DNA of 21,729 bases, from positions 1 to 21,729 of the IMG/VR virus record IMGVR_UViG_3300042402_003622. One strand, given 5' to 3'. This DNA is from a virus. Numbering within the stretch: the first letter of the stretch is position 1; each line of letters starts with the position of its first letter. The notes under the pieces are model-generated. The model worked only from the letters and a program-made list of their open reading frames with translations. It was not told the origin of the DNA and ran no database searches. Positions 4,809 through 14,509 of this stretch are shown piece after piece. The translations under genes and the position numbers were made by a program.

Positions 4809-5669
4809 TTAAGTCGACCATGCATTCTTAAAGAGAGGAACCTGCAGCCTATCACTATATCTAAAGCCATGTTTCATAGCCAATAGTGCAACATTTTTAT
4901 TATATAACTCATAAACACTTTCTACGCCACCTACAGGCATAAGATAAACTGGGCCAGTAAATCCTGCATCACGATAAGCATTCACTGCTTCTAAAATTTC
5001 CTCAGTATCTTGCTCTCCAGCTACAACAAATTTCAAATAAGTATATCCCAATAGATTGTAATCACATACTATATCAGGTTTAATTGCATCAGACCATTTT
5101 TCTCCACTCACACTAAGTTTAGGACTTACACTAAAAGTAATTTCTTTAACTAATGTATCTTCCATAAGATAGTGAAAAAATTCTCCAGTAAGCTCTTGAG
5201 TGCCATTTGTTTCAAAGGTAAGTTCTTGTAAACTTTGCATAAGTGGATGTTCTAACAGTTCTGGATATGCTCTTTGCCATCCTAATAGTGGTTCTCCACC
5301 AGTAATTACTAAATGCTCATCTTGCCATGTTTTTTGCGGCAATAAATCCACAATACTTTTAGCTAATTGATCTGCAGTATCTTTCATTACAAATTTTTTA
5401 AATTCAGGATATACTGAACTATAACTATCACATCCTGTTTTGACTAATGGCAAGTCTTTAAAATCATTATAATTGTCTATATTACGAATAATTTCAACCA
5501 CTTCTGGATTGTGTGTAATTTCCTCTCCAAGAATATGTTCCTGATATCTATTAAAATTTTTGCATCTAAAATTGCAGCCAAACATACGAAGGAATACACT
5601 AGGTACTCCCATGTAACGGCCTTCTCCCTGAATGGAATAGAATTTTTCTGTGTAATGAAATTTACTCAT
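4809..5669 (-). CDS. queE: 7-carboxy-7-deazaguanine synthase, radical SAM (QueE)
   Basis: QueE is a radical SAM enzyme that converts 6-carboxy-tetrahydropterin to 7-carboxy-7-deazaguanine (CDG). In 286 residues the family pattern is plain: YSIQGEGRYMGVPSVFLR (11-28), the 4Fe-4S region beginning GCNFRC (31-36), SAM-binding GGEP (124-127), FETNGTQ and a C-terminal VYLMPVGG. Oddly the third cluster Cys is not three residues after C36, where F39 stands. The expected third-Cys context, normally C-D-T-x-Y, appears as GCDSYSS at 79-85, after a 43-residue insertion, giving CX3CX43C. I recall the same arrangement in other phage QueE proteins. The ATG at 5669 has AGGAC six bases upstream. It ends the deazaguanine run that starts with dpdA; folE and queD-like genes are upstream. 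Confidence 0.93.
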   Translation of the reverse strand: MSKFHYTEKFYSIQGEGRYMGVPSVFLRMFGCNFRCKNFNRYQEHILGEEITHNPEVVEIIRNIDNYNDFKDLPLVKTGCDSYSSVYPEFKKFVMKDTADQLAKSIVDLLPQKTWQDEHLVITGGEPLLGWQRAYPELLEHPLMQSLQELTFETNGTQELTGEFFHYLMEDTLVKEITFSVSPKLSVSGEKWSDAIKPDIVCDYNLLGYTYLKFVVAGEQDTEEILEAVNAYRDAGFTGPVYLMPVGGVESVYELYNKNVALLAMKHGFRYSDRLQVPLFKNAWST

Positions 5670-5699: not shown

Positions 5700-5915
5700 T
5701 TAGTATAAAAACCCTATTACATATACAAGGCTTAAAATAGCATTTCCTGTCCATAAACTAGGTTGTCGCCACATAATACCTACCAAGGTCCATGTAATAC
5801 TGCCAGTTAAGAAAAGATATTTATTAAGTGGTGTATAGTCAAAACTTGTAGCAAAAGCACCCAATAAAATTAAAAAATTACTGGACCACTTTAGGATCCA
5901 TTCTATAATGTTCAT
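5700..5915 (-). CDS. Small membrane protein (71 aa, about three spans)
   Basis: Seventy-one residues, mostly hydrophobic, with three likely membrane spans at about 10-26, 33-48 and 54-71, and polar turns containing DYTPLN and WRQPSLW. No signal cleavage site or catalytic motif is evident. The ATG overlaps the stop of the UDP-glucose-dehydrogenase-like gene as ATGA, and queE begins 30 bases after its end, so it is embedded in the deazaguanine run. Possible roles range from a transporter accessory to a lysis-type or host-takeover protein; none is supported by the sequence. Confidence 0.7.
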   Translation of the reverse strand: MNIIEWILKWSSNFLILLGAFATSFDYTPLNKYLFLTGSITWTLVGIMWRQPSLWTGNAILSLVYVIGFLY

Positions 5916-6703
5916 TCTTTTCGTAGATCTTTATTTATTATAACTGCTTGTTCCAACAAAGTCAATTTTATTCCCAACTTGTTGGCAAATTGTAACCAAG
6001 CACTTGTATCTTTAGGAAAACAATGACCACCGAATCCATATAAACCATCTGGTCCTGGAACTTTGCAGTGACTTAGTCCAACTCTTGGGTCTTTTTGTAA
6101 TAATCCAACAACATTATTCCAATTTAAATTACATCTTTCTGCAAGAAGAGCCATTTCGTTCATAAACACAACTTTTGTCGCAAGGAAAGAATTTTCTACA
6201 TATTTTACAAAGGCTGCTTCTTTACAGCTAGAAATGTAACTTGATCTTAATTTTAATTGTCCTAACCTAGTTAGTTCCATTGCTTGAACTATAAATTCCT
6301 GACGCAATAAATCGCCACCAATAATGTTGTCTATCTCGTCTGCATAGTCATTAATGCTATTATTTGCAGTAAGAAACTCAGGAATGTGTACAAGGTTAGG
6401 GAATTTATTAGATAAAGTTTCGTATATATCTGGAGTTGCAGTGGTTTTAGATATAATTAATTTATTGTAATTAGTAAGCTGATCTAAAGTATTAATTAAA
6501 ATAGATGCATCGCAAGAGCCATCTTCCGATGCTGGGCTGGGCACACAAATAAAAATAGCATCCGTACTAAAAAGATCATCAAAGTTATGAGTTGATTTTG
6601 TTTTGTCTATATCTACACATACTAAGTCATACTGTTTACTTTTATAAACATTCTTAACTGCATTTCCTACATATCCTAGTCCAATTATGCCTAATGATTT
6701 CAT
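5912..6703 (-). CDS. Shortened UDP-glucose/GDP-mannose dehydrogenase-like protein
   Basis: A member of the UDP-glucose/GDP-mannose dehydrogenase family, which oxidises a nucleotide sugar twice to the uronic acid using NAD. The Rossmann motif GLGYVG is at 8-13, VPSP near 54-57, the central helix with KYVENSFLATKVVF around 167-180, and the catalytic Cys motif GFGGHCFPKD at 223-232 (C228). The protein ends at 263, soon after this motif; typical members have 390 to 450 residues and use the missing C-terminal domain to bind the nucleotide. No frameshift is evident: the reading frame closes with an ATGA overlap to the next gene, so the short form looks genuine. It may act on a non-nucleotide or DNA-attached substrate, or need a partner. 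It is joined by ATGA overlaps to the HIT gene before it and the small membrane gene after it. Confidence 0.85.
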   Translation of the reverse strand: MKSLGIIGLGYVGNAVKNVYKSKQYDLVCVDIDKTKSTHNFDDLFSTDAIFICVPSPASEDGSCDASILINTLDQLTNYNKLIISKTTATPDIYETLSNKFPNLVHIPEFLTANNSINDYADEIDNIIGGDLLRQEFIVQAMELTRLGQLKLRSSYISSCKEAAFVKYVENSFLATKVVFMNEMALLAERCNLNWNNVVGLLQKDPRVGLSHCKVPGPDGLYGFGGHCFPKDTSAWLQFANKLGIKLTLLEQAVIINKDLRKE

Positions 6704-7081: not shown

Positions 7082-7591
7082 TTAAATATCTTCTAAAAGA
7101 TTTTCGTTCCACTCTCTATGTCCTTCTCTAAATGCCATATTGCTTTGAGTTTCTCGTACTTCGACTTTATAGCACCAAACTCTTTCAGATTCAACTTGGC
7201 CCAAATAGTCAGGAATAAAAACAGAATTAACAAATTTATATAACATATCAGCGATTCTTTCGCAACCCATACCAGGCAATACAGTTAAATCTAAAATACC
7301 ATCTTTTTCAAGTTGCCTATATCGTTCTAGATCAGGATCATCATAAGCGATCAATGTTTTATGATCGAATTGATCTTTAAGAAGTTGTTTTAGTTCTTTT
7401 AGTCCACCGTAATCAATTACCCAGCCTCTTTTATCTAATTCATTTGCACCAAAGTAAAATTTTAAACTAAATGAATAGCCATGATTTTTATTACAATGTG
7501 TATCTGCCTTCCATTGTTTGTAGGCAACTGGAAATTCATCAATATATTCTTTTGTTGATGTAAATTTATAAACGATTGGTTGATATAGCAT
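7082..7591 (-). CDS. queD: 6-carboxy-tetrahydropterin synthase-like protein (QueD, altered zinc site)
   Basis: A T-fold protein of the 6-pyruvoyl/6-carboxy-tetrahydropterin synthase family, 169 residues. QueD turns 7,8-dihydroneopterin triphosphate into 6-carboxy-tetrahydropterin, the substrate of QueE. Visible: catalytic Cys C33 in CNKNHGY (33-39), VIDYGGLK (58-65, the VxDFxxLK motif), the Asp-His pair D76-H77, and the substrate-binding Glu in VEVRET (E147). Unusual: the zinc ligands are incomplete. H37 is there, but the CxxxHGH motif ends in Tyr (Y39), and the N-terminal His expected about 11 residues before C33 is missing. H32 beside the Cys might substitute. The ATG at 7591 has AGGA at good spacing. 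folE and queE lie either side in the same run, supporting the QueD role. A second T-fold gene (10705-11151) has the zinc residues that this one lacks. Confidence 0.8.
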   Translation of the reverse strand: MLYQPIVYKFTSTKEYIDEFPVAYKQWKADTHCNKNHGYSFSLKFYFGANELDKRGWVIDYGGLKELKQLLKDQFDHKTLIAYDDPDLERYRQLEKDGILDLTVLPGMGCERIADMLYKFVNSVFIPDYLGQVESERVWCYKVEVRETQSNMAFREGHREWNENLLEDI

Positions 7592-7600
7592 TCTTTATCC

Positions 7601-7933
7601 TTAGTTTTTTTTATCTTTACGATCCATAGTTTCTTTTATATTATGGCTTCTAACTCTTTCGTTGAATTTAAGCATAAACATACTAGCAGTGCCTATATCT
7701 TGTCCTAAAAAGTGTAATCTAGTTCCAAAAAGACCATTACTATGATGATGGCACCATTTGCTATTATATCTTACATAGTGTCTTACAATATTTCTACCTC
7801 TAGGGTCATAGTATGTATCTGTTTTTACTTCGCCACCGATTAATTTATACCATTCTATTATTTCTTCTGTTAGTAAATCTATATCTATCCAGATAGAGTA
7901 TGTTACTGAGCATCCTGGTGGCAACGGTATCAT
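7601..7933 (-). CDS. Small phage protein of unknown function (110 aa)
   Basis: The ATG at 7933, which overlaps the stop of the cupin gene as ATGA, is the most likely start (110 residues), although a TTG at 7972 and an ATG at 7963 are in frame further upstream. The protein is rich in aromatic and basic residues, with YYDPRGRNIVRHYVRY near the middle, CHHHSNG after it, and a C-terminal LKFNERVRSHNIKE helix. The His cluster could bind metal, but I recognise no family. It is part of the tightly packed run between folE and queD. Confidence 0.7.
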   Translation of the reverse strand: MIPLPPGCSVTYSIWIDIDLLTEEIIEWYKLIGGEVKTDTYYDPRGRNIVRHYVRYNSKWCHHHSNGLFGTRLHFLGQDIGTASMFMLKFNERVRSHNIKETMDRKDKKN

Positions 7934-8382
7934 TGTTTTCTTTCTAGTAAATATTGCTCCCATTGAATCCAAATATTATTTTTAAGAAATCCCCATTCGC
8001 GTTGGTGTGGTCCTGGCATAAACAATGTCCAGGCTGTTACCCCTTCTTTTAATTCAATACGATGATATGAAGTGGAAGAAGCGAATCTAAAATGACCAGG
8101 GCCACGCCAATGTTTTGTTTCCCCAATTTTTTCACCGTTGCTATTAAATTTAGGAGTCCATTCATAGTAGCCTCCTTTTAGTATTAATGTAGCATAGGGC
8201 CAAGGATGATCATGTAAATCATCTGGGTCTGATTTTAAAAATTTATGTAAAAATAAATTAAATGGAAAATTTTTTCTATCTTTTATAAACAGATAATAAC
8301 GCTCTAGATAAGGTTCATCGTTAACCCTATCCATTACAATGCGTTTACGATCTAATTTCTCTAAAAGTTTAAGTAAAATCAT
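7930..8382 (-). CDS. Cupin-fold protein, substrate unknown
   Basis: A 150-residue protein with a single cupin-like barrel. The first metal motif is LHDHPWPYATLILKGGYYEW (56-75; H57, H59 and probably E74), with a GPGHFRF turn (94-100) and the second motif His in SYHRIEL (H107). This is the general layout of small metal-binding cupins, which include dioxygenases, isomerases and sugar epimerases. The sequence does not match the RmlC-type sugar epimerase pattern that I remember, so enzyme class is open. An N-terminal basic helix precedes the barrel. It begins with ATGA at the end of the 90-aa gene and overlaps the following gene by four bases, in the run between folE and queD, which makes a role in modifying the base or its sugar conceivable but unproven. 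Confidence 0.75.
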   Translation of the reverse strand: MILLKLLEKLDRKRIVMDRVNDEPYLERYYLFIKDRKNFPFNLFLHKFLKSDPDDLHDHPWPYATLILKGGYYEWTPKFNSNGEKIGETKHWRGPGHFRFASSTSYHRIELKEGVTAWTLFMPGPHQREWGFLKNNIWIQWEQYLLERKQ

Positions 8383-8651
8383 TGTTTATATAGTTCCATT
8401 GCAACAATTCTACCTATTTCTTCTGCATAGTCTTTGTTGTCGGTAATAATATAAAGTGACACATCATTTCTATCTTTGGGTCTATTATATCTACTAAATG
8501 ATAACAAAATACCACCTTGAGCAGGTGTTACTCTAAAGTTCATGGAATGTCCTGTTTGGACATCGTTATCAGCTGTAGAAGTTATTGATAGCTCTGCTAA
8601 TTGTTTATTAGATTGGTTGTTACGATTAAACAGTTTGGAAAAAATATTCAT
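8379..8651 (-). CDS. Small phage protein of unknown function (90 aa)
   Basis: Ninety residues, with a polar N-terminal half rich in Asn and Ser (residues 8-35) followed by a compact part predicted beta-beta-alpha (GGILLSFSRY, VSLYIITDN, EEIGRIVAMELYK). I do not recognise it. It starts with a TAATG one-base overlap with the folE stop and ends with an ATGA overlap into the cupin gene, so it will be co-translated with both. Confidence 0.7.
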   Translation of the reverse strand: MNIFSKLFNRNNQSNKQLAELSITSTADNDVQTGHSMNFRVTPAQGGILLSFSRYNRPKDRNDVSLYIITDNKDYAEEIGRIVAMELYKQ

Positions 8652-9337
8652 TAATTATGTCCTTTCATACTTAGGCAAATATCGTAAAATTCTTTTTTAA
8701 GAGGGGGATGTGTATCAAAAGCACCTAGCATAATAGCAGTTGTCATATCAGACTCATGTTCTCTAACACCGCGTTGTGTCATACAATGATGTTCTGCTTT
8801 TACGATTACAGCAATATGTTCTGTTTTAGCATATTGTCTCAATGCTTCTGCAATTTGTGTTGTCATTTCTTCCTGAATTTGAGGCCGTTCACAGATATGA
8901 TGTACAATACGATTAAATTTGCTAAGGCCAATTACTTCATCTTGTGGAACAATACCAACCCAACATCTACCAACAATGTTTTGAAAGTGATGAGCACAAG
9001 TACTACGGATGCTAATAGGGCCAGTAGTGTATAGGCTTTTATAGCCAAGGTTAGGAAATGCAGTAACTTTTGGTACAGGTTTATAGCGGCCGCTGAAAGT
9101 TTCTTGAATGAACATCTTGGCCACTCTATGAGCAGTTTCTTGAGTATTGTGATCATGATCTGTATCAATAATTAAACTAGATAAAACTCCTTGGAATTTC
9201 GTTGCAACTTCATCTACAAGTTTATCTAATTCGCCTTCTTGAATATAGTCTGAAATATTATCATTTGCATGAAATCTTGCACCTGCTGTCTTGATTCGGT
9301 TTCTAATAGCATCACTGATATATGTGCCGTGTTCCAA
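8651..9337 (-). CDS. folE: GTP cyclohydrolase I (FolE)
   Basis: FolE converts GTP to 7,8-dihydroneopterin triphosphate, the entry to both folate and 7-deazaguanine synthesis; here the neighbours indicate the latter. In 228 residues the family motifs are clear: ISIRSTCAHH (108-117) with zinc ligands C114 and H117, VIGLSKFNRIV (135-145), the IQEEMTTQIA helix (154-163), and EHHCMTQRGVRE (182-193) with the third ligand C185. The usual CEHH is CAHH. The start is a TTG at 9337: an in-frame TAA lies two codons upstream, no ATG occurs before residue 75, and a strong GGAG stands six bases before it. A promoter candidate (9375-9403) precedes it, suggesting separate or extra transcription from here through queE. 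Confidence 0.95.
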   Translation of the reverse strand: MEHGTYISDAIRNRIKTAGARFHANDNISDYIQEGELDKLVDEVATKFQGVLSSLIIDTDHDHNTQETAHRVAKMFIQETFSGRYKPVPKVTAFPNLGYKSLYTTGPISIRSTCAHHFQNIVGRCWVGIVPQDEVIGLSKFNRIVHHICERPQIQEEMTTQIAEALRQYAKTEHIAVIVKAEHHCMTQRGVREHESDMTTAIMLGAFDTHPPLKKEFYDICLSMKGHN

Positions 9338-9340
9338 AAT

Positions 9341-9347
9341 TTACTCC
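9341..9347 (-). promoter_or_regulatory. Strong ribosome site that fixes a TTG start for folE
   Basis: The minus strand reads TTAGGAGTAAATTTTG. GGAG is six bases before the TTG at 9337, and the TAA within the same stretch is in frame, so translation cannot begin further upstream. A TTG start with a near-perfect SD typically gives reduced but steady translation. Confidence 0.65.
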
Positions 9348-9374
9348 TAATTTATATTATTTAGACAAAAAACA

Positions 9375-9403
9375 ATTATACAACAAAATAATTATAAAAA
9401 CAA
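9375..9403 (-). promoter_or_regulatory. Candidate sigma70-type promoter before folE
   Basis: In the 66-base gap before folE the minus strand has TTGTTT (9403-9398), a 17-base spacer and a perfect TATAAT (9380-9375). The predicted start is about 30 bases upstream of the TTG codon, leaving room for the SD. The gap is almost pure A and T, so the -10 match alone would mean little; the correct spacing and the position ahead of folE support it. Confidence 0.45.
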
Positions 9404-10510
9404 TTATTTCAATGATAAAATGTTATCAACCAATTTGTTTGCACTAAAAAAATGTTGTGTTAAAAATTGTGTTTGTTTATGTAGTTCTAATAATCTATTG
9501 TTATAGTCTTGCATGGTAATATTAATAAAGTGGCATAATTGATCTTTATTAACTTTATAACTATCCCATGATTCTGTCCAAACACTAGGATACTTAAACA
9601 TATCAAAATACATTTCTTTATAGCTTAATCTATCAGGCACAATAGGAATAGCACCCAGTAATGCACCTTCGTAACAGCCTATACCTAAAGTCTCTTGCAA
9701 ACTAGCACTAAAAACAATTTTGGCTTCAGACAGAATATTATGATATTGGTCTTTGGTCAAATTTTGATCTTGGCATACTATAAATTCGTATTGTGGTAAA
9801 TTATCGGCAAGAGCTCTAAAAATATCTACTTGTTTTTCTGGAGCGATTCTATGGGGAAAAACAATTAAATCTCGTTTAGATGATTGTTTAAAATTATGCA
9901 ATAGAGTAGGCATATATTCCATGGGCCATCCTGATCTAACAATTTTGGGCCATTCACCGTTTAAAATTTCTTCAAGATCTTCTTCAATCCAGGCGTTTTC
10001 TTGAAAACCATCATTGAGTAGATCGCGCACAAACATTTCAATATGAAATTTTGAGGCAAAATAATTGTAATCTATAGCGTGGAAGAAACTTTTCTCTGCA
10101 TGTCTTACCCATGCTGCGTTTCCTATTAATCTACCTAAAAAGTCATGTTTATCGTAACTTCCAGCATGCCAAAGTGCATGAATCTTAACTGGAATGTTAA
10201 GTAGTTCGCTCATATATTTTAAGTTTATGATGCCAGGATGCCAAGCATCAGTAAACAAAAAATGATCACCAGGCTTAATTGTTCCGGAGCAAAATAAACG
10301 ACCCATTTGCTCAACCTGCTGAGATTTATAGATATTAGTGCCACCAAAGTTAAGAAAAGCGCCTGGAGTGGTTGCACTAGGAATATCCGTAGAGCCAGAA
10401 ATAGTCTGTACATTTATACCGTTCCGTTGTAAAAGAATTGGCAGATGCCATTTCCATTGTGATGTGTATCTAGTCTCTACCGACTCGATATCTACTAGAT
10501 ATAGATTCAT
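9404..10510 (-). CDS. GT-B fold glycosyltransferase
   Basis: A 368-residue glycosyltransferase with two Rossmann-like halves. The C-terminal half has the donor-binding pattern of retaining GT-B enzymes: FPHRIAPEKQVD (218-229, with R221 and K226 for the phosphates) and an EX7E motif, ETLGIGCYE (E273 and E281), followed by GALLGAIPIVPD. The N-terminal half, which would bind the acceptor, is unfamiliar and rich in aromatic residues and His (WHAGSYDKHDF around 114-124). There are no membrane segments, so it acts in the cytoplasm. Related enzymes occur in cyanophages. Its position between folE and the second T-fold gene makes phage DNA, or a modified base in it, a possible acceptor; a host surface or protein acceptor is equally possible from sequence alone. 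Its stop side is followed by the folE promoter region. The ATG overlaps the preceding gene as ATGA. Confidence 0.85.
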   Translation of the reverse strand: MNLYLVDIESVETRYTSQWKWHLPILLQRNGINVQTISGSTDIPSATTPGAFLNFGGTNIYKSQQVEQMGRLFCSGTIKPGDHFLFTDAWHPGIINLKYMSELLNIPVKIHALWHAGSYDKHDFLGRLIGNAAWVRHAEKSFFHAIDYNYFASKFHIEMFVRDLLNDGFQENAWIEEDLEEILNGEWPKIVRSGWPMEYMPTLLHNFKQSSKRDLIVFPHRIAPEKQVDIFRALADNLPQYEFIVCQDQNLTKDQYHNILSEAKIVFSASLQETLGIGCYEGALLGAIPIVPDRLSYKEMYFDMFKYPSVWTESWDSYKVNKDQLCHFINITMQDYNNRLLELHKQTQFLTQHFFSANKLVDNILSLK

Positions 10511-10695
10511 TGCTGTCTGGCCGCAATCCTACGCTCTTTGTCAAACTTTTTCCATTGGTCACTTTTATAAATATCACGCTCATCATATCTAAGCATATTG
10601 TTTTTACAAAACTCTAAATAAGCATCAAGCTCATCGAAAATTTCAGTGACTTCAGGTTTCATACCCAAAAAGCGTTTGTTATTCTTTTGTGCCAT
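10507..10695 (-). CDS. Small conserved phage protein of unknown function (62 aa)
   Basis: Sixty-two residues, highly charged, probably helical throughout: FLGMKPEVTEIFDELDAYLEF (about 9-29) and a C-terminal segment rich in Lys, Arg and Asp. I recall close relatives among marine T4-like phages, with no function. The ATG at 10695 has AGGA six bases upstream, and the stop overlaps the glycosyltransferase start as ATGA, so the two are coupled. Confidence 0.75.
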   Translation of the reverse strand: MAQKNNKRFLGMKPEVTEIFDELDAYLEFCKNNMLRYDERDIYKSDQWKKFDKERRIAARQQ

Positions 10696-10704
10696 TATTC
10701 TTCC

Positions 10705-11151
10705 TTAAATAGAAATTAATTGAGGTTTATGTGTGTCGTACTTAATAAAACAACCATTTTCATCGTCTTCGCTTACTTCGATCCATACACTGCGACTTGG
10801 ATAGCGATCAGCAATTTGCAAATATAAATCATCTGCAATCATTTCACAACTTTTATAATCTAACGACAATACACTCGAGTTGCCAGAATACAATTGTTCA
10901 AGCCATCGCTTGAATTGAATAAATTCCAAGTCTCTATCATCGTGGAATACTGAAATCCAAACCCTAAAATGAAAAATGTGACGATGAGGATACGCAAGAA
11001 AACTGACATCATACTGGTCTCCCGTTGCTAATTTAGGATCAGTTTCAGCAGCTGGATATCTATGAATACCTTCTTTTTGAAAAGTTACCCAAATTTTTCT
11101 CTCAACTCGTTGCATAATCCTTGTTACTACTTCTCTCTGTTCCTGATTCAT
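10705..11151 (-). CDS. Second T-fold (QueD/PTPS-like) protein with intact zinc histidines
   Basis: A 148-residue protein I place in the T-fold superfamily. Its order of motifs parallels QueD: EGIHRYPAA (28-35) for the FxAAHxL strand with H30, YPHRHIFHF (54-62) for the HGH strand with H56 and H58, an LEFIQFKRWLEQL segment (75-87) for the VxDFxxLK helix, and SCEMIADDLYLQI (101-113) followed by IEVSED for the last helix and strand. The three zinc His are therefore present, but no Cys stands four residues before H56, and the catalytic Asp-His pair is absent. It could be a partner of the queD-like protein at 7082-7591, or a diverged enzyme such as a reductase. QueF was considered, but its Cys and E(S/L)K motifs are not seen. 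The ATG at 11151 has AAGGA with good spacing. I recall similar unannotated proteins in cyanophages. Confidence 0.65.
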   Translation of the reverse strand: MNQEQREVVTRIMQRVERKIWVTFQKEGIHRYPAAETDPKLATGDQYDVSFLAYPHRHIFHFRVWISVFHDDRDLEFIQFKRWLEQLYSGNSSVLSLDYKSCEMIADDLYLQIADRYPSRSVWIEVSEDDENGCFIKYDTHKPQLISI

Positions 11152-11164
11152 ATTTATTCCTTTT

Positions 11165-12085
11165 TTAAACCCAACTTAAATAGCCTCTGCTATATTTTTT
11201 ATGCCTATTTAAACCATCCTGAAATGCTTGTTGCCATTCTGTATCTCTATTATACCCTTTTGTCCAAAAACTGTCAACATTAATCTTACCAGTTTGTATC
11301 ATATAAACCGCTTCCCACATACATTCAAAAAAACCATCTGTTCTTGGACTTGGAAATACAATAGTGCATGCTTTCCATAATAAGTTTTGAAAATCGGTAG
11401 TAATTTTCTTTTGTGTGCCTAAAATTAATAATCCTTGCGTGTTTAAGGCTCCCTCACTAAATGCAAAGTCACTATTGCCTAAGTCTATAATTACATCATA
11501 ATTATGTTTAGGTTTTTTTTCTAAATTAGTTACTGACTTCCAAATTTCACTATTACTTGACCCTACAACATCAATTTTAAACTTCATGTTTAAATTTTTA
11601 ATTGTGTGAAAGGCTACCCACGCTAAAAACCCTGTACCAATAATAAGTAAATTTTTATTTGTGCCACTTCGTTTAATAATATCGTTCAAAGGTTGTAAAA
11701 CAAGATTTATACCACATGCTACTGGTTCTATAATATACCTAGGGTGAGCTTGCGGTACTAAAACATATTCATTTTCCCGCACAGTATAAAAGTCAGCATA
11801 TGCTGGCTCGCCCCTTGTAGCAACATAATCACCTACTTTAACATCCTCAACATCTGATCCTACTTCAATGACTTGTCCTAAACCTTCATGGCCTTGCATA
11901 TGCAGTGGTAACTGCCCAAATGAGCCAGTCATCATGTCAATGTCACTACGGCAAATACCTGTAAAAATTGCTTTTACTTTTATATCTGTATTAGTCAATA
12001 TGGGACAAGTGTAAGAAGTTTCAAAAAACTTTCCCTGTCCTAAAGTTTGTAAAACTCGATTTATGCTATTTGTTTGTGTATCCAT
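11165..12085 (-). CDS. Zinc-dependent MDR (polyol/alcohol dehydrogenase-like) oxidoreductase
   Basis: A 306-residue medium-chain dehydrogenase, an NAD(P)-linked oxidoreductase of alcohols or polyols. The catalytic zinc region is clear: GICRSD (43-48, C45), GHEGLGQVIEVG (65-76, H66 and E67) and IEPVACG (119-125, E120), the polyol-dehydrogenase arrangement with a Glu ligand. VGDYVA (84-89) follows, but the four-Cys structural zinc lobe that usually comes next is missing. The Rossmann part has LLIIGTGFLAW in place of GxGxxG, with a degenerate third position. At 306 residues it is shorter than the usual 340 to 360. It overlaps the end of the Gfo/Idh/MocA gene by 25 bases, so the two dehydrogenases are translated together, suggesting successive oxidation and reduction of one substrate. 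The substrate is unknown. Confidence 0.85.
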   Translation of the reverse strand: MDTQTNSINRVLQTLGQGKFFETSYTCPILTNTDIKVKAIFTGICRSDIDMMTGSFGQLPLHMQGHEGLGQVIEVGSDVEDVKVGDYVATRGEPAYADFYTVRENEYVLVPQAHPRYIIEPVACGINLVLQPLNDIIKRSGTNKNLLIIGTGFLAWVAFHTIKNLNMKFKIDVVGSSNSEIWKSVTNLEKKPKHNYDVIIDLGNSDFAFSEGALNTQGLLILGTQKKITTDFQNLLWKACTIVFPSPRTDGFFECMWEAVYMIQTGKINVDSFWTKGYNRDTEWQQAFQDGLNRHKKYSRGYLSWV

Positions 12086-12936
12086 ATGTCTTGCTCAAGT
12101 TGATTTTGCCAAAAAATATCGTTGTAAATGTTGGCATAAACGAATTTTAGCATATTTTTGTATGCAGATTCAGGACATAATCCAAGATCTATAAACTCAT
12201 TGTCGAAATATAGCCCTATATCGGACCCAGACATACTACGCCAATCAGTAGTAATTGTTATATCTTTATTAAAAATATTGGTGTTAAGAGTTACATAATC
12301 ATCTACATTGTATATCCCATCTACTTTTATATCCCCATAGTCGCTATCGGTTAGATCCTGCAATTGCCATTTTTGAGTTTTTATTTTATTATGCCAATTT
12401 GTTTGTTGATACTGTGGTTCAAATAAGGTATAAAAACTTAGTAAATGAGGCAAAAGGTCTTTACTTACCCCACCATAACTTAATTGACTATTAGTAAACC
12501 AACTGCCGGGTTTAGGAACACGATTATTATTAATCCAGTGTAATTTAATATTTTTACTTTTATGATATTTTGCAAATAGTAGTTTAGTATTATCTCTATA
12601 TTGATTATTTTTTATCATCATAAAGCGTGTATTTGGAAATTCTCTAACTAAAGATTGCCATTCCTGCGCATCTTTAACTCCAGGTTTTTCTATTAATACA
12701 ATTTTACTAACTTTTGCTACTTTTTTTGCAATTGAGTAATGTAAATAATTAGGTACTGAAACAATAGTAATATCTATAGAGTTAACATCTGTAATTGCTT
12801 GGTCTAAGTCTAAATAGTTTGGGTTTAGATCAGGATTTATATCTACTGTATAGCAAATATATTTTAAATCCTTACATACATTTTTATACAATTGGCCTAT
12901 ACCTAGGCCAACTACTAAACATTTAATTGCTGCCAT
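12061..12936 (-). CDS. Gfo/Idh/MocA-family oxidoreductase
   Basis: A 291-residue NAD(P)-dependent oxidoreductase of the glucose-fructose oxidoreductase/inositol dehydrogenase/MocA family, which acts on sugars, inositols and their derivatives. Seen: the Rossmann motif VVGLGIGQLY (8-17), SVPNYLHYSIA (60-70), the catalytic-Lys motif EKPG (83-86, K84), and GGVSKDLLPH (155-164), with the Asp and His (D160, H164) that complete the active site. It is shorter than the usual 330 to 400 residues. The ATG at 12936 is 14 bases inside dpdA, without a good SD, so translation is coupled to dpdA. This direct coupling to a DNA transglycosylase is the main hint that it works on a base or sugar linked to DNA modification; biochemistry is not predictable from the sequence. 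Confidence 0.88.
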   Translation of the reverse strand: MAAIKCLVVGLGIGQLYKNVCKDLKYICYTVDINPDLNPNYLDLDQAITDVNSIDITIVSVPNYLHYSIAKKVAKVSKIVLIEKPGVKDAQEWQSLVREFPNTRFMMIKNNQYRDNTKLLFAKYHKSKNIKLHWINNNRVPKPGSWFTNSQLSYGGVSKDLLPHLLSFYTLFEPQYQQTNWHNKIKTQKWQLQDLTDSDYGDIKVDGIYNVDDYVTLNTNIFNKDITITTDWRSMSGSDIGLYFDNEFIDLGLCPESAYKNMLKFVYANIYNDIFWQNQLEQDIWIHKQIA

Positions 12937-14485
12937 CTAAATTTTGTTCAAGTTTATCAAGTTCTGTATCTATAGCTTCTGGAGGTAAATCTTCCTCGTC
13001 AAAACTAAAATGTTTACTAAAATAAGTTTTACTATTTACAGCATTTTGACTTAAAGTTCCTCGTGTGCCAACAATACACATCCAATATTTGTTATATTCT
13101 TCAATTATAGCTTCTGCACGCCCTCTATCGCTAGTAGCAAAAATATCATTTACCACATCTCTAAAAAAGTTATGCCTATTAGATCTAAATGATTTTTTCC
13201 CTGCAATAGTGGATATAAGCATTTCTGGAACTATGCCATTATCATATTGCCTATTAGCTTCTTGTACTGCATAAAGGTGTGACCAAACATTATGCCCCAT
13301 TTGTAAAACATAACTAAAACTGTCCCAGCTGGTTTTGCCTTCTTTGCCTATTTTATTAAGATCGCCTGGTTTATATACACATACATCCTTAATTAATAAG
13401 CGTTTACTGATGGGACTTTCTAAAAATGTTTCAAATACTTTGTCATTAATAACAGCATCGCCAAAAAATCTATTATCCACAGAATATTTTTTATCATCTA
13501 CACTTGTACGCATTCTATAGACCCATTTTTTACGATCAGGAAATTCTGATTCAGTATAGATTTGTCCGTTAGCGGTAGCTAAAAATGGGCTTGCACAATC
13601 AAAACTTATTGTAAAGTTTTCGTTATGATATTTACGAATAGCTCGTTGAATATCTGTCAATAACAATCCCCATTCAAGTTTACCTGTTCCAAGGAAGTGC
13701 ATCCAATCATGTTTACCAGGTTCTAATAGTCCTTCGAATCTTAGTGCCACTAATCGCTTTAATGCTAGATGTACATCGCACATATTCTGCCCGCCCATTG
13801 CCCAACCATCAAATGGTTGTTCAAAGTGTTTAGGGTCACAATAATGTTTTACTTGATTATACCAACGGTCAGCTTCTTCATGTGTTTCTCCTTGTAATAC
13901 ATTTAGTAATTTGCAATTACCATTTCTATTACGCATGAAGTAATCATTATTAATTAATGTAGCTTGAATGGCTTCAGCTTCGCTAGTAATACCAGTGGCT
14001 TTTCTTGCTACTGCACTTCGTGCAGCCCAGCTAGGCACATCTAGAATCATACCTCGATCCATATATGCATCTAGCCATTCAATAACTTGTTTACGACGCT
14101 GGCCTGCTTTGGGACAGTTAGGATTTTTCCAATCGCCTTCCCAAACACCTTTACCAATTTGGAACCCGCCACTATCGCCTAAAATAAATGAATTTTGTCT
14201 ATCACGATTGCGCACCATTTCGTCTCGATTAGGTGGTGCATTCACATCCAGTGCAGCATGTCCTGCACTATATAAACTCCATTTATAGTGAAAGTATCCA
14301 TTGGTTTTATCAAACCAATTTAATCCATCAATGGATCCATTAAAATGAACGGGTATTCTTGTTTGTGACAAATAGTTAGGATTAAGTTTATTTTTACTTA
14401 GTTCACTTGAATAAAAACTACTTAATGCAGGTAAAAATATAGCATAATCCCGTTGTTTTGTAGTTAAATCGTCTTGGGGAATCAT
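12923..14485 (-). CDS. dpdA: DNA 7-deazaguanine transglycosylase (DpdA, TGT family)
   Basis: A TGT-superfamily base-exchange enzyme. DpdA proteins swap guanine in DNA for a 7-deazaguanine, as tRNA-guanine transglycosylase does in tRNA. Using the ATG at 14485 (520 residues; a TTG at 14494 is also in frame), the active site is seen as GDSGGFQ (103-109, D104), LDVP (148-151, D149), NVLQGE (195-200), GWAMGGQ (227-233) and the nucleophile in SFDCASP (D296). A helix MGHNVWSHLYAVQEANR resembles the C-terminal TGT helix, but the CxCxxC zinc site is missing, since no such Cys cluster exists. The start has no SD; a 6-bp hairpin (14491-14509) sits over the gp45 stop codon just before it. It follows the clamp gene almost directly and overlaps the Gfo/Idh/MocA gene. 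folE, queD-like and queE in the same run make a DNA rather than tRNA role very likely. Confidence 0.92.
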   Translation of the reverse strand: MIPQDDLTTKQRDYAIFLPALSSFYSSELSKNKLNPNYLSQTRIPVHFNGSIDGLNWFDKTNGYFHYKWSLYSAGHAALDVNAPPNRDEMVRNRDRQNSFILGDSGGFQIGKGVWEGDWKNPNCPKAGQRRKQVIEWLDAYMDRGMILDVPSWAARSAVARKATGITSEAEAIQATLINNDYFMRNRNGNCKLLNVLQGETHEEADRWYNQVKHYCDPKHFEQPFDGWAMGGQNMCDVHLALKRLVALRFEGLLEPGKHDWMHFLGTGKLEWGLLLTDIQRAIRKYHNENFTISFDCASPFLATANGQIYTESEFPDRKKWVYRMRTSVDDKKYSVDNRFFGDAVINDKVFETFLESPISKRLLIKDVCVYKPGDLNKIGKEGKTSWDSFSYVLQMGHNVWSHLYAVQEANRQYDNGIVPEMLISTIAGKKSFRSNRHNFFRDVVNDIFATSDRGRAEAIIEEYNKYWMCIVGTRGTLSQNAVNSKTYFSKHFSFDEEDLPPEAIDTELDKLEQNLDGSN

Positions 14486-14490
14486 ATTAT

Positions 14491-14509
14491 ACAAACTTAT
14501 TTTGTTTGT
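14491..14509 (-). promoter_or_regulatory. Weak hairpin at the clamp-dpdA junction
   Basis: ACAAAC (14509-14504 on the minus strand) pairs with GTTTGT (14496-14491) across a 7-base loop. The stem covers the gp45 stop codon and ends five bases before the dpdA ATG, where no SD is present. Only two of six pairs are G-C, so the structure is weak; any role in tuning dpdA translation is speculative. Confidence 0.3.

Follow-up and report, generated by a model that had tools for sequence, protein, structure and literature searches.

A zinc-poor QueD and a probable DpdL as two independent T-fold proteins of a putative phage 7-deazaguanine DNA-base pathway

The window analysed here is the whole stretch of 21,729 nucleotides of the IMG/VR virus record IMGVR_UViG_3300042402_003622 (positions 1 to 21,729). 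Two of its genes, at 7082-7591 and 10705-11151, lie on the minus strand with about 3 kb between them and encode proteins with a predicted T-fold, in the company of genes for FolE, QueE, a putative DpdA-like DNA guanine transglycosylase and a glycosyltransferase. This gene set probably encodes a phage pathway that makes a 7-deazaguanine base for DNA, in which the two T-fold proteins would carry out successive and independent steps, the first as QueD and the second as a probable decarboxylase of 7-carboxy-7-deazaguanine (CDG). The genes concerned are given below.

7082-7591, minus strand: QueD (6-carboxytetrahydropterin synthase) of the CxxxHGY clade, 169 amino acids; Pfam PTPS/QueD, phrog_2389
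10705-11151, minus strand: T-fold protein, probable DpdL (predicted CDG decarboxylase), 148 amino acids; phrog_17812
8651-9337, minus strand: FolE, GTP cyclohydrolase I; Pfam PF01227 at E 3.2e-44, phrog_2197
4809-5669, minus strand: QueE, CDG synthase (radical S-adenosylmethionine enzyme); phrog_2076 at E 6.3e-47, motif scan
12923-14494, minus strand: putative DpdA-like DNA guanine transglycosylase; motifs DSGGFQ, LQGE, HFLGT and FDCASP, hhalign to the ACP17 protein
9404-10510, minus strand: GT-B (GT4-like) glycosyltransferase adjoining the probable DpdL; conserved neighbour

The 7082-7591 protein matched the Pfam PTPS/QueD family PF01242 at E 5.6e-18 (65.5 bits, cut-off 22.4) and phrog_2389 at E 7e-36, and its AlphaFold2 model (predicted local distance difference test score, pLDDT, 94.1) aligned with structures of the QueD/PTPS family at VIA-align Z values of 12.6-15.5, which places it in the QueD sequence family and among the T-folds. 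The catalytic Cys, the Asp-His pair and the ligand-anchoring Glu of QueD were all present; among the 38 relatives used for residue conservation, C33, H37, G38, Y39, D76, H77 and E111 were invariant (38/38) and E147 was found in 37/38. The zinc triad, an N-terminal His plus HGH, was not retained. In the alignment with E. coli QueD (a reference sequence with which the 3QN0 stretch agrees), Y24 stood at the N-terminal zinc His (H16) and Y39 at the second His of HGH, so that two of the three ligands are replaced. Position 24 was Tyr in 25 relatives, Phe in 11 and His in 2. Because Y39 is invariant and position 24 is mostly Tyr or Phe, the absence of the ligands is a property of the clade and not a sequencing error. 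On these comparisons the protein belongs to a widespread clade of phage QueDs that invariably have CxxxHGY instead of CxxxHGH; that the zinc site is lost across the whole clade was one of the less expected results. Since the triad is incomplete, the protein is called a QueD variant here, with a function that we infer.

The 10705-11151 protein matched phrog_17812, a family without annotated function, at E 4e-34. A Pfam scan of the protein returned no family, the PTPS/QueD model included, and a scan of its relatives returned only scattered matches below threshold; sequence searches of the PDB with this protein or with the 7082-7591 protein, each as a single sequence, gave no match at useful E-values. 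The AlphaFold2 model (mean pLDDT 89.9) had E. coli QueD as its best Foldseek match (E 7e-5, TM-score 0.58/0.70) and PTPS/QueD structures as its best VIA-align matches (Z 10.5-11.7, root-mean-square deviation 2.1-2.7), and other T-folds (dihydroneopterin aldolase, QueF-like, GTP cyclohydrolase, uricase) ranked below or tied with PTPS/QueD. In all 56 relatives used for conservation (56/56), H30, H56, H58, H70, R73, E76, S101, C102, E103 and E128 were invariant. The relatives had no conserved Cys four residues before H56 (position 54 is variable and 52 an invariant Leu), and no conserved Asp-His pair was found in the protein or its 56 relatives. Profile alignment (hhalign 85.6%) paired E128 with E147 of the window QueD and the S-C-E of 101-103 with the G-C-E around E111; element order and profile alignment set H30, H56/H58, S-C-E and E128 at H16, H31/H33, T-S-E and E110 of QueD. 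Because the structure matches, the element order and the profile alignment agree, the protein is, as modelled, a QueD-like T-fold that keeps the metal ligands and the ring-anchoring Glu, without the Cys and the Asp-His pair. It was not filed as QueD because these last two features are missing.

A preliminary description of this DNA had named C33, Y39, D76-H77, E147 and the missing N-terminal His in the first protein, all of which proved correct by reading of the open reading frame and by alignment. Its reading of the second protein, a triad of H30, H56 and H58 but neither a Cys four residues before H56 nor an Asp-His pair, was likewise correct and holds across the 56 relatives, and the T-fold of that protein, which it had only inferred, gained the support of AlphaFold2, Foldseek and VIA-align. 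It had missed E128 and the S-C-E of 101-103.

Several minor observations concern the same family. The PDB entry 2HFQ was considered as a relative of the 10705-11151 protein and set aside, being a weak match (E 0.17; 0.95 with a profile) that disagreed with the structure search. Probable DpdL proteins fused to other N-terminal regions were seen in Vibrio phage Bakedbeans (locus L007, 7254-8405) and Chryseobacterium phage MA9V-3 (locus L011, 7482-8363); the N-terminal region of the latter resembles an HNH-type nuclease region.

The preliminary description had also proposed that the two proteins might form a hetero-oligomer in which the 10705-11151 protein gives the zinc and the QueD gives the Cys, the Asp-His pair and the Glu, with each active only in the presence of the other. 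The idea draws on two T-folds encoded some 3 kb apart on the same strand, with losses that look complementary, and 9 of the 12 reference phages with the 10705-11151 family also have an HGY QueD. It was weighed by distribution and chain geometry. The HGY QueD occurred without the 10705-11151 family in phages R7M, RHEph05, Iggy, Moby and HD01, in a whole-record search that recovers the family in 12/12 carrier phages. The opposite case was met in Vibrio phage Bakedbeans, where the family accompanies a zinc-complete QueD keeping AH and HGH, in Magnetospirillum islands, again with a zinc-complete QueD, and in Vibrio phage D479, where the family is present and no PF01242 match was detected. Phages with both proteins include phiST (Cellulophaga) and ACP17 (Acidovorax). 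Because each protein is found without the other, the hetero-oligomer is unsupported. Geometry points the same way. In QueD/PTPS structures a single chain contributes the Cys of CxxxHGH and, four and six residues further on, its two His, so that C33 would face the vacant zinc site of its own chain and not that of a partner; with C33 four residues from H37, sharing the partner's zinc would need a large rearrangement. The 10705-11151 protein also has its own invariant E128. We regard such a complex as very improbable. The data do fit the other option in that description, namely that the 7082-7591 protein is a true QueD whose metal site has changed and the 10705-11151 protein has taken on a new role. 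A replacement of QueD by the 10705-11151 protein was rejected, as it is contradicted by the genomes with both proteins.

A 305-residue open reading frame of Aeromonas phage Ahp1_CNU-2021 (locus L167, record 87168-87563) has the look of a fusion of two T-folds, of which the first lacks zinc ligands but has DH, and the second has AH and HGH. It is an in-cis form of the complementarity proposed earlier.

The HGY QueD lies between queC and folE in R7M, RHEph05, Iggy and HD01. Because it is the sole PF01242 protein in these four phages, in queE-queC-queD-folE runs, the zinc-poor protein was taken as a working QueD. Alternatively, the HGY protein would no longer be a QueD and would serve another pterin or 7-deazaguanine step, with 6-carboxytetrahydropterin (CPH4) coming from the host or from a second phage QueD. 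The replacement of two of three zinc ligands in most of the HGY clade is consistent with this, as is the HGY copy beside a zinc-complete copy in PA5oct and Paride, but the Cys, Asp-His pair and Glu of QueD are kept, and its position as the only PF01242 protein between queC and folE argues for QueD. We consider the loss of QueD function quite unlikely. The two PF01242 proteins of PA5oct (loci L168 and L152) are one zinc-complete protein and one HGY-type protein that has His at position 24.

A scan of viral contigs found at least 599 relatives of the 10705-11151 protein; scans of the contigs with the phiST and D479 proteins as queries found no relatives. Gene company was counted in 122 viral loci and 12 reference phages carrying the family. 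The reference phages all had FolE and QueE (12/12 each), and 11/12 had a PF01242 QueD. A DpdA-like gene was present in 110/122 viral loci on the same strand as the family gene. Its motifs in the window (DSGGFQ, LQGE, HFLGT, FDCASP) are mostly invariant, and hhalign gave 82% to the DpdA-like protein of ACP17, with 4% and 0.4% to the single sequences of X1 and 9g; a Magnetospirillum relative matched Pfam TGT PF01702 weakly (E 0.026). Other reference phages carry differing putative DpdA proteins beside the family gene, recognised by motif and position only.

A QueC search in the same 12 phages gave no match in 10 and no canonical QueC in any. The match in phage X1 is annotated as NAD+ synthase, and that in D479 as QueC-like, with SGIDS in place of the QueC motif SGGxDS (PMC13329287). 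In the HGY-QueD phages without the second protein, a hand-picked small set of five, QueC matches were strong in R7M, RHEph05, Iggy and HD01 and weak in Moby. No canonical QueC, Gat-QueC or ArcS/QueF-L was seen in the window. The company of the 10705-11151 family is folE, queE and a DpdA-like gene, with no canonical QueC. On the simplest reading of these gene contents, the 10705-11151 protein most likely acts on CDG, the QueE product, in place of QueC, and is probably DpdL, a predicted CDG decarboxylase. DpdL is reportedly a phage gene found with folE, queD, queE and DpdA in QueC-less phages, a likeness to the 10705-11151 family in gene company. The occurrence of the family in phiST and ACP17 is in keeping with its presumed identity with DpdL. 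Cui et al. 2023 (NAR 51:9214-9226) reportedly predicted DpdL to be a CDG decarboxylase yielding 2'-deoxy-7-deazaguanosine (dDG).

The preferred pathway would run as follows, on a FolE-QueD-QueE-DpdA logic that is established outside this window. FolE would convert GTP to dihydroneopterin triphosphate, and the 7082-7591 protein, as QueD, would make CPH4 by itself with its zinc site largely dismantled. QueE would then make CDG, on which the 10705-11151 protein, a QueD-derived zinc T-fold, would act. Its conserved residues suggest how: E128 may hold the 2-amino-pyrimidinone edge of the guanine-like ring, like the equivalent Glu in QueD/PTPS; a putative zinc on H30, H56 and H58 together with R73, H70 or E76 may hold the carboxylate; CO2 would leave and C7 would be protonated, giving 7-deazaguanine (DG). 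The DpdA-like protein would finally swap guanine in the DNA for the new base, with protection from host nucleases as the outcome.

The glycosyltransferase at 9404-10510 is a close companion of the probable DpdL. Pfam Glycos_transf_1 was found in 9/14 of its relatives (best 8e-12), hence GT4-like. It was present in 118/122 viral loci of the 10705-11151 family, on the same strand and at a median gap of 397 bp; by whole-genome search, 6/12 of the reference phages with the family had it and 6/12 did not. All strong full-length matches in phage records were in records with the family. In the Magnetospirillum islands the glycosyltransferase stands directly before the probable DpdL (8823-9992 in locus L184), and one strand carries, close together, the glycosyltransferase, the probable DpdL, a DpdA-like protein, a small unknown protein and a zinc-complete QueD. 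These islands were found in Magnetospirillum aberrantis SpK (L184, 7176-16340) and in loci L183, L185, L186, L190 and L189. A CoiA-like nuclease gene lies upstream of the SpK island, and a phage-type integrase gene is nearby. The link to the probable DpdL was the other less expected result, and the titles and abstracts searched described no glycosyltransferase-DpdA link.

The modified base is one possible target of the glycosyltransferase. If it is the target, the 10705-11151 protein could act on CDG without simple decarboxylation, readying CDG or DG for a sugar that the glycosyltransferase adds, so that the DNA holds a glycosylated 7-deazaguanine. The 118/122 viral loci, the adjoining genes in Magnetospirillum, the six reference phages and the restriction of strong full-length phage matches to records with the family suggest such a base; however, the six other reference phages lack the enzyme, plain DG has no hydroxyl for glycosylation, and the target could be another base or the cell surface. 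We consider this unlikely. A broader form, which we hold to be rather improbable, is a cassette common to phages and mobile Magnetospirillum islands that would place a sugar-bearing 7-deazaguanine in DNA through the combined action of a zinc T-fold enzyme with CDG as its substrate, a transglycosylase of the DpdA type and a GT-B glycosyltransferase, and that would be fed by QueDs of a clade that has lost two of its three zinc ligands.

Against the preferred pathway, from CDG through a probable DpdL to DG, several points must be set. D479 has a QueC-like PP-loop protein, with a degenerate motif. The window is a fragment, and QueC may lie elsewhere in the phage genome. The equation of the phrog_17812 family with the DpdL of Cui et al. 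2023 is presumptive. Because PA5oct and Paride have both QueD types, the HGY protein may serve some other function, and with a glycosyltransferase so frequent, the final base may differ from plain DG.

Compared with QueD (PF01242; E. coli QueD 4NTK, A. baumannii QueD2 7V0F), the 7082-7591 protein shares the T-fold, catalytic Cys, Asp-His pair, Glu and folE/queE neighbourhood, but has HGY and Y24 at two zinc His positions. The 10705-11151 protein shares the T-fold, zinc triad and anchoring Glu, but lacks the catalytic Cys, the Asp-His pair and detection by Pfam. The phage pathway for 2'-deoxy-7-cyano-7-deazaguanosine (dPreQ0) and 2'-deoxyarchaeosine (dG+) in Enterobacteria phage 9g, CAjan and Rosebush, where the 9g QueD complements E. 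coli (Hutinet et al. 2019, PMC6884629), has FolE, QueD and QueE in common with the window, and a DpdA-type transglycosylase whose counterpart in the window is putative; QueC, Gat-QueC and ArcS/QueF-L were not seen in the window. The 9g QueD is zinc-complete, unlike that of the window. The chemistry of QueD is believed to require its zinc, and because a phage-wide clade replaces two of three ligands with aromatic residues, that belief becomes directly testable. The pattern of the 10705-11151 protein, with zinc ligands and Glu kept and Cys and Asp-His lost, suggests a route from a synthase fold to a decarboxylase, an activity of DpdL reportedly only predicted. The link to a glycosyltransferase hints that the DNA base may be more elaborate than 7-deazaguanine. 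This link and the zinc-site loss in the QueD clade deserve further study.

Other genes of the window were less informative. The product of 7930-8382 matched phrog_4786, labelled cysteine dioxygenase (E 4e-39), without a clear Pfam match. Sugar-type dehydrogenase/oxidoreductase genes at 5912-6703, 11165-12085 and 12061-12936 were left outside the conserved set because they occur in just 4 to 8 of the first 93 sequences. By motif scan, the window QueE has CNFRC with the third cluster Cys about 45 residues downstream, in GCDS, behind an insertion; this displaced Cys is common to many relatives, and other relatives have a compact CX3CX2C.

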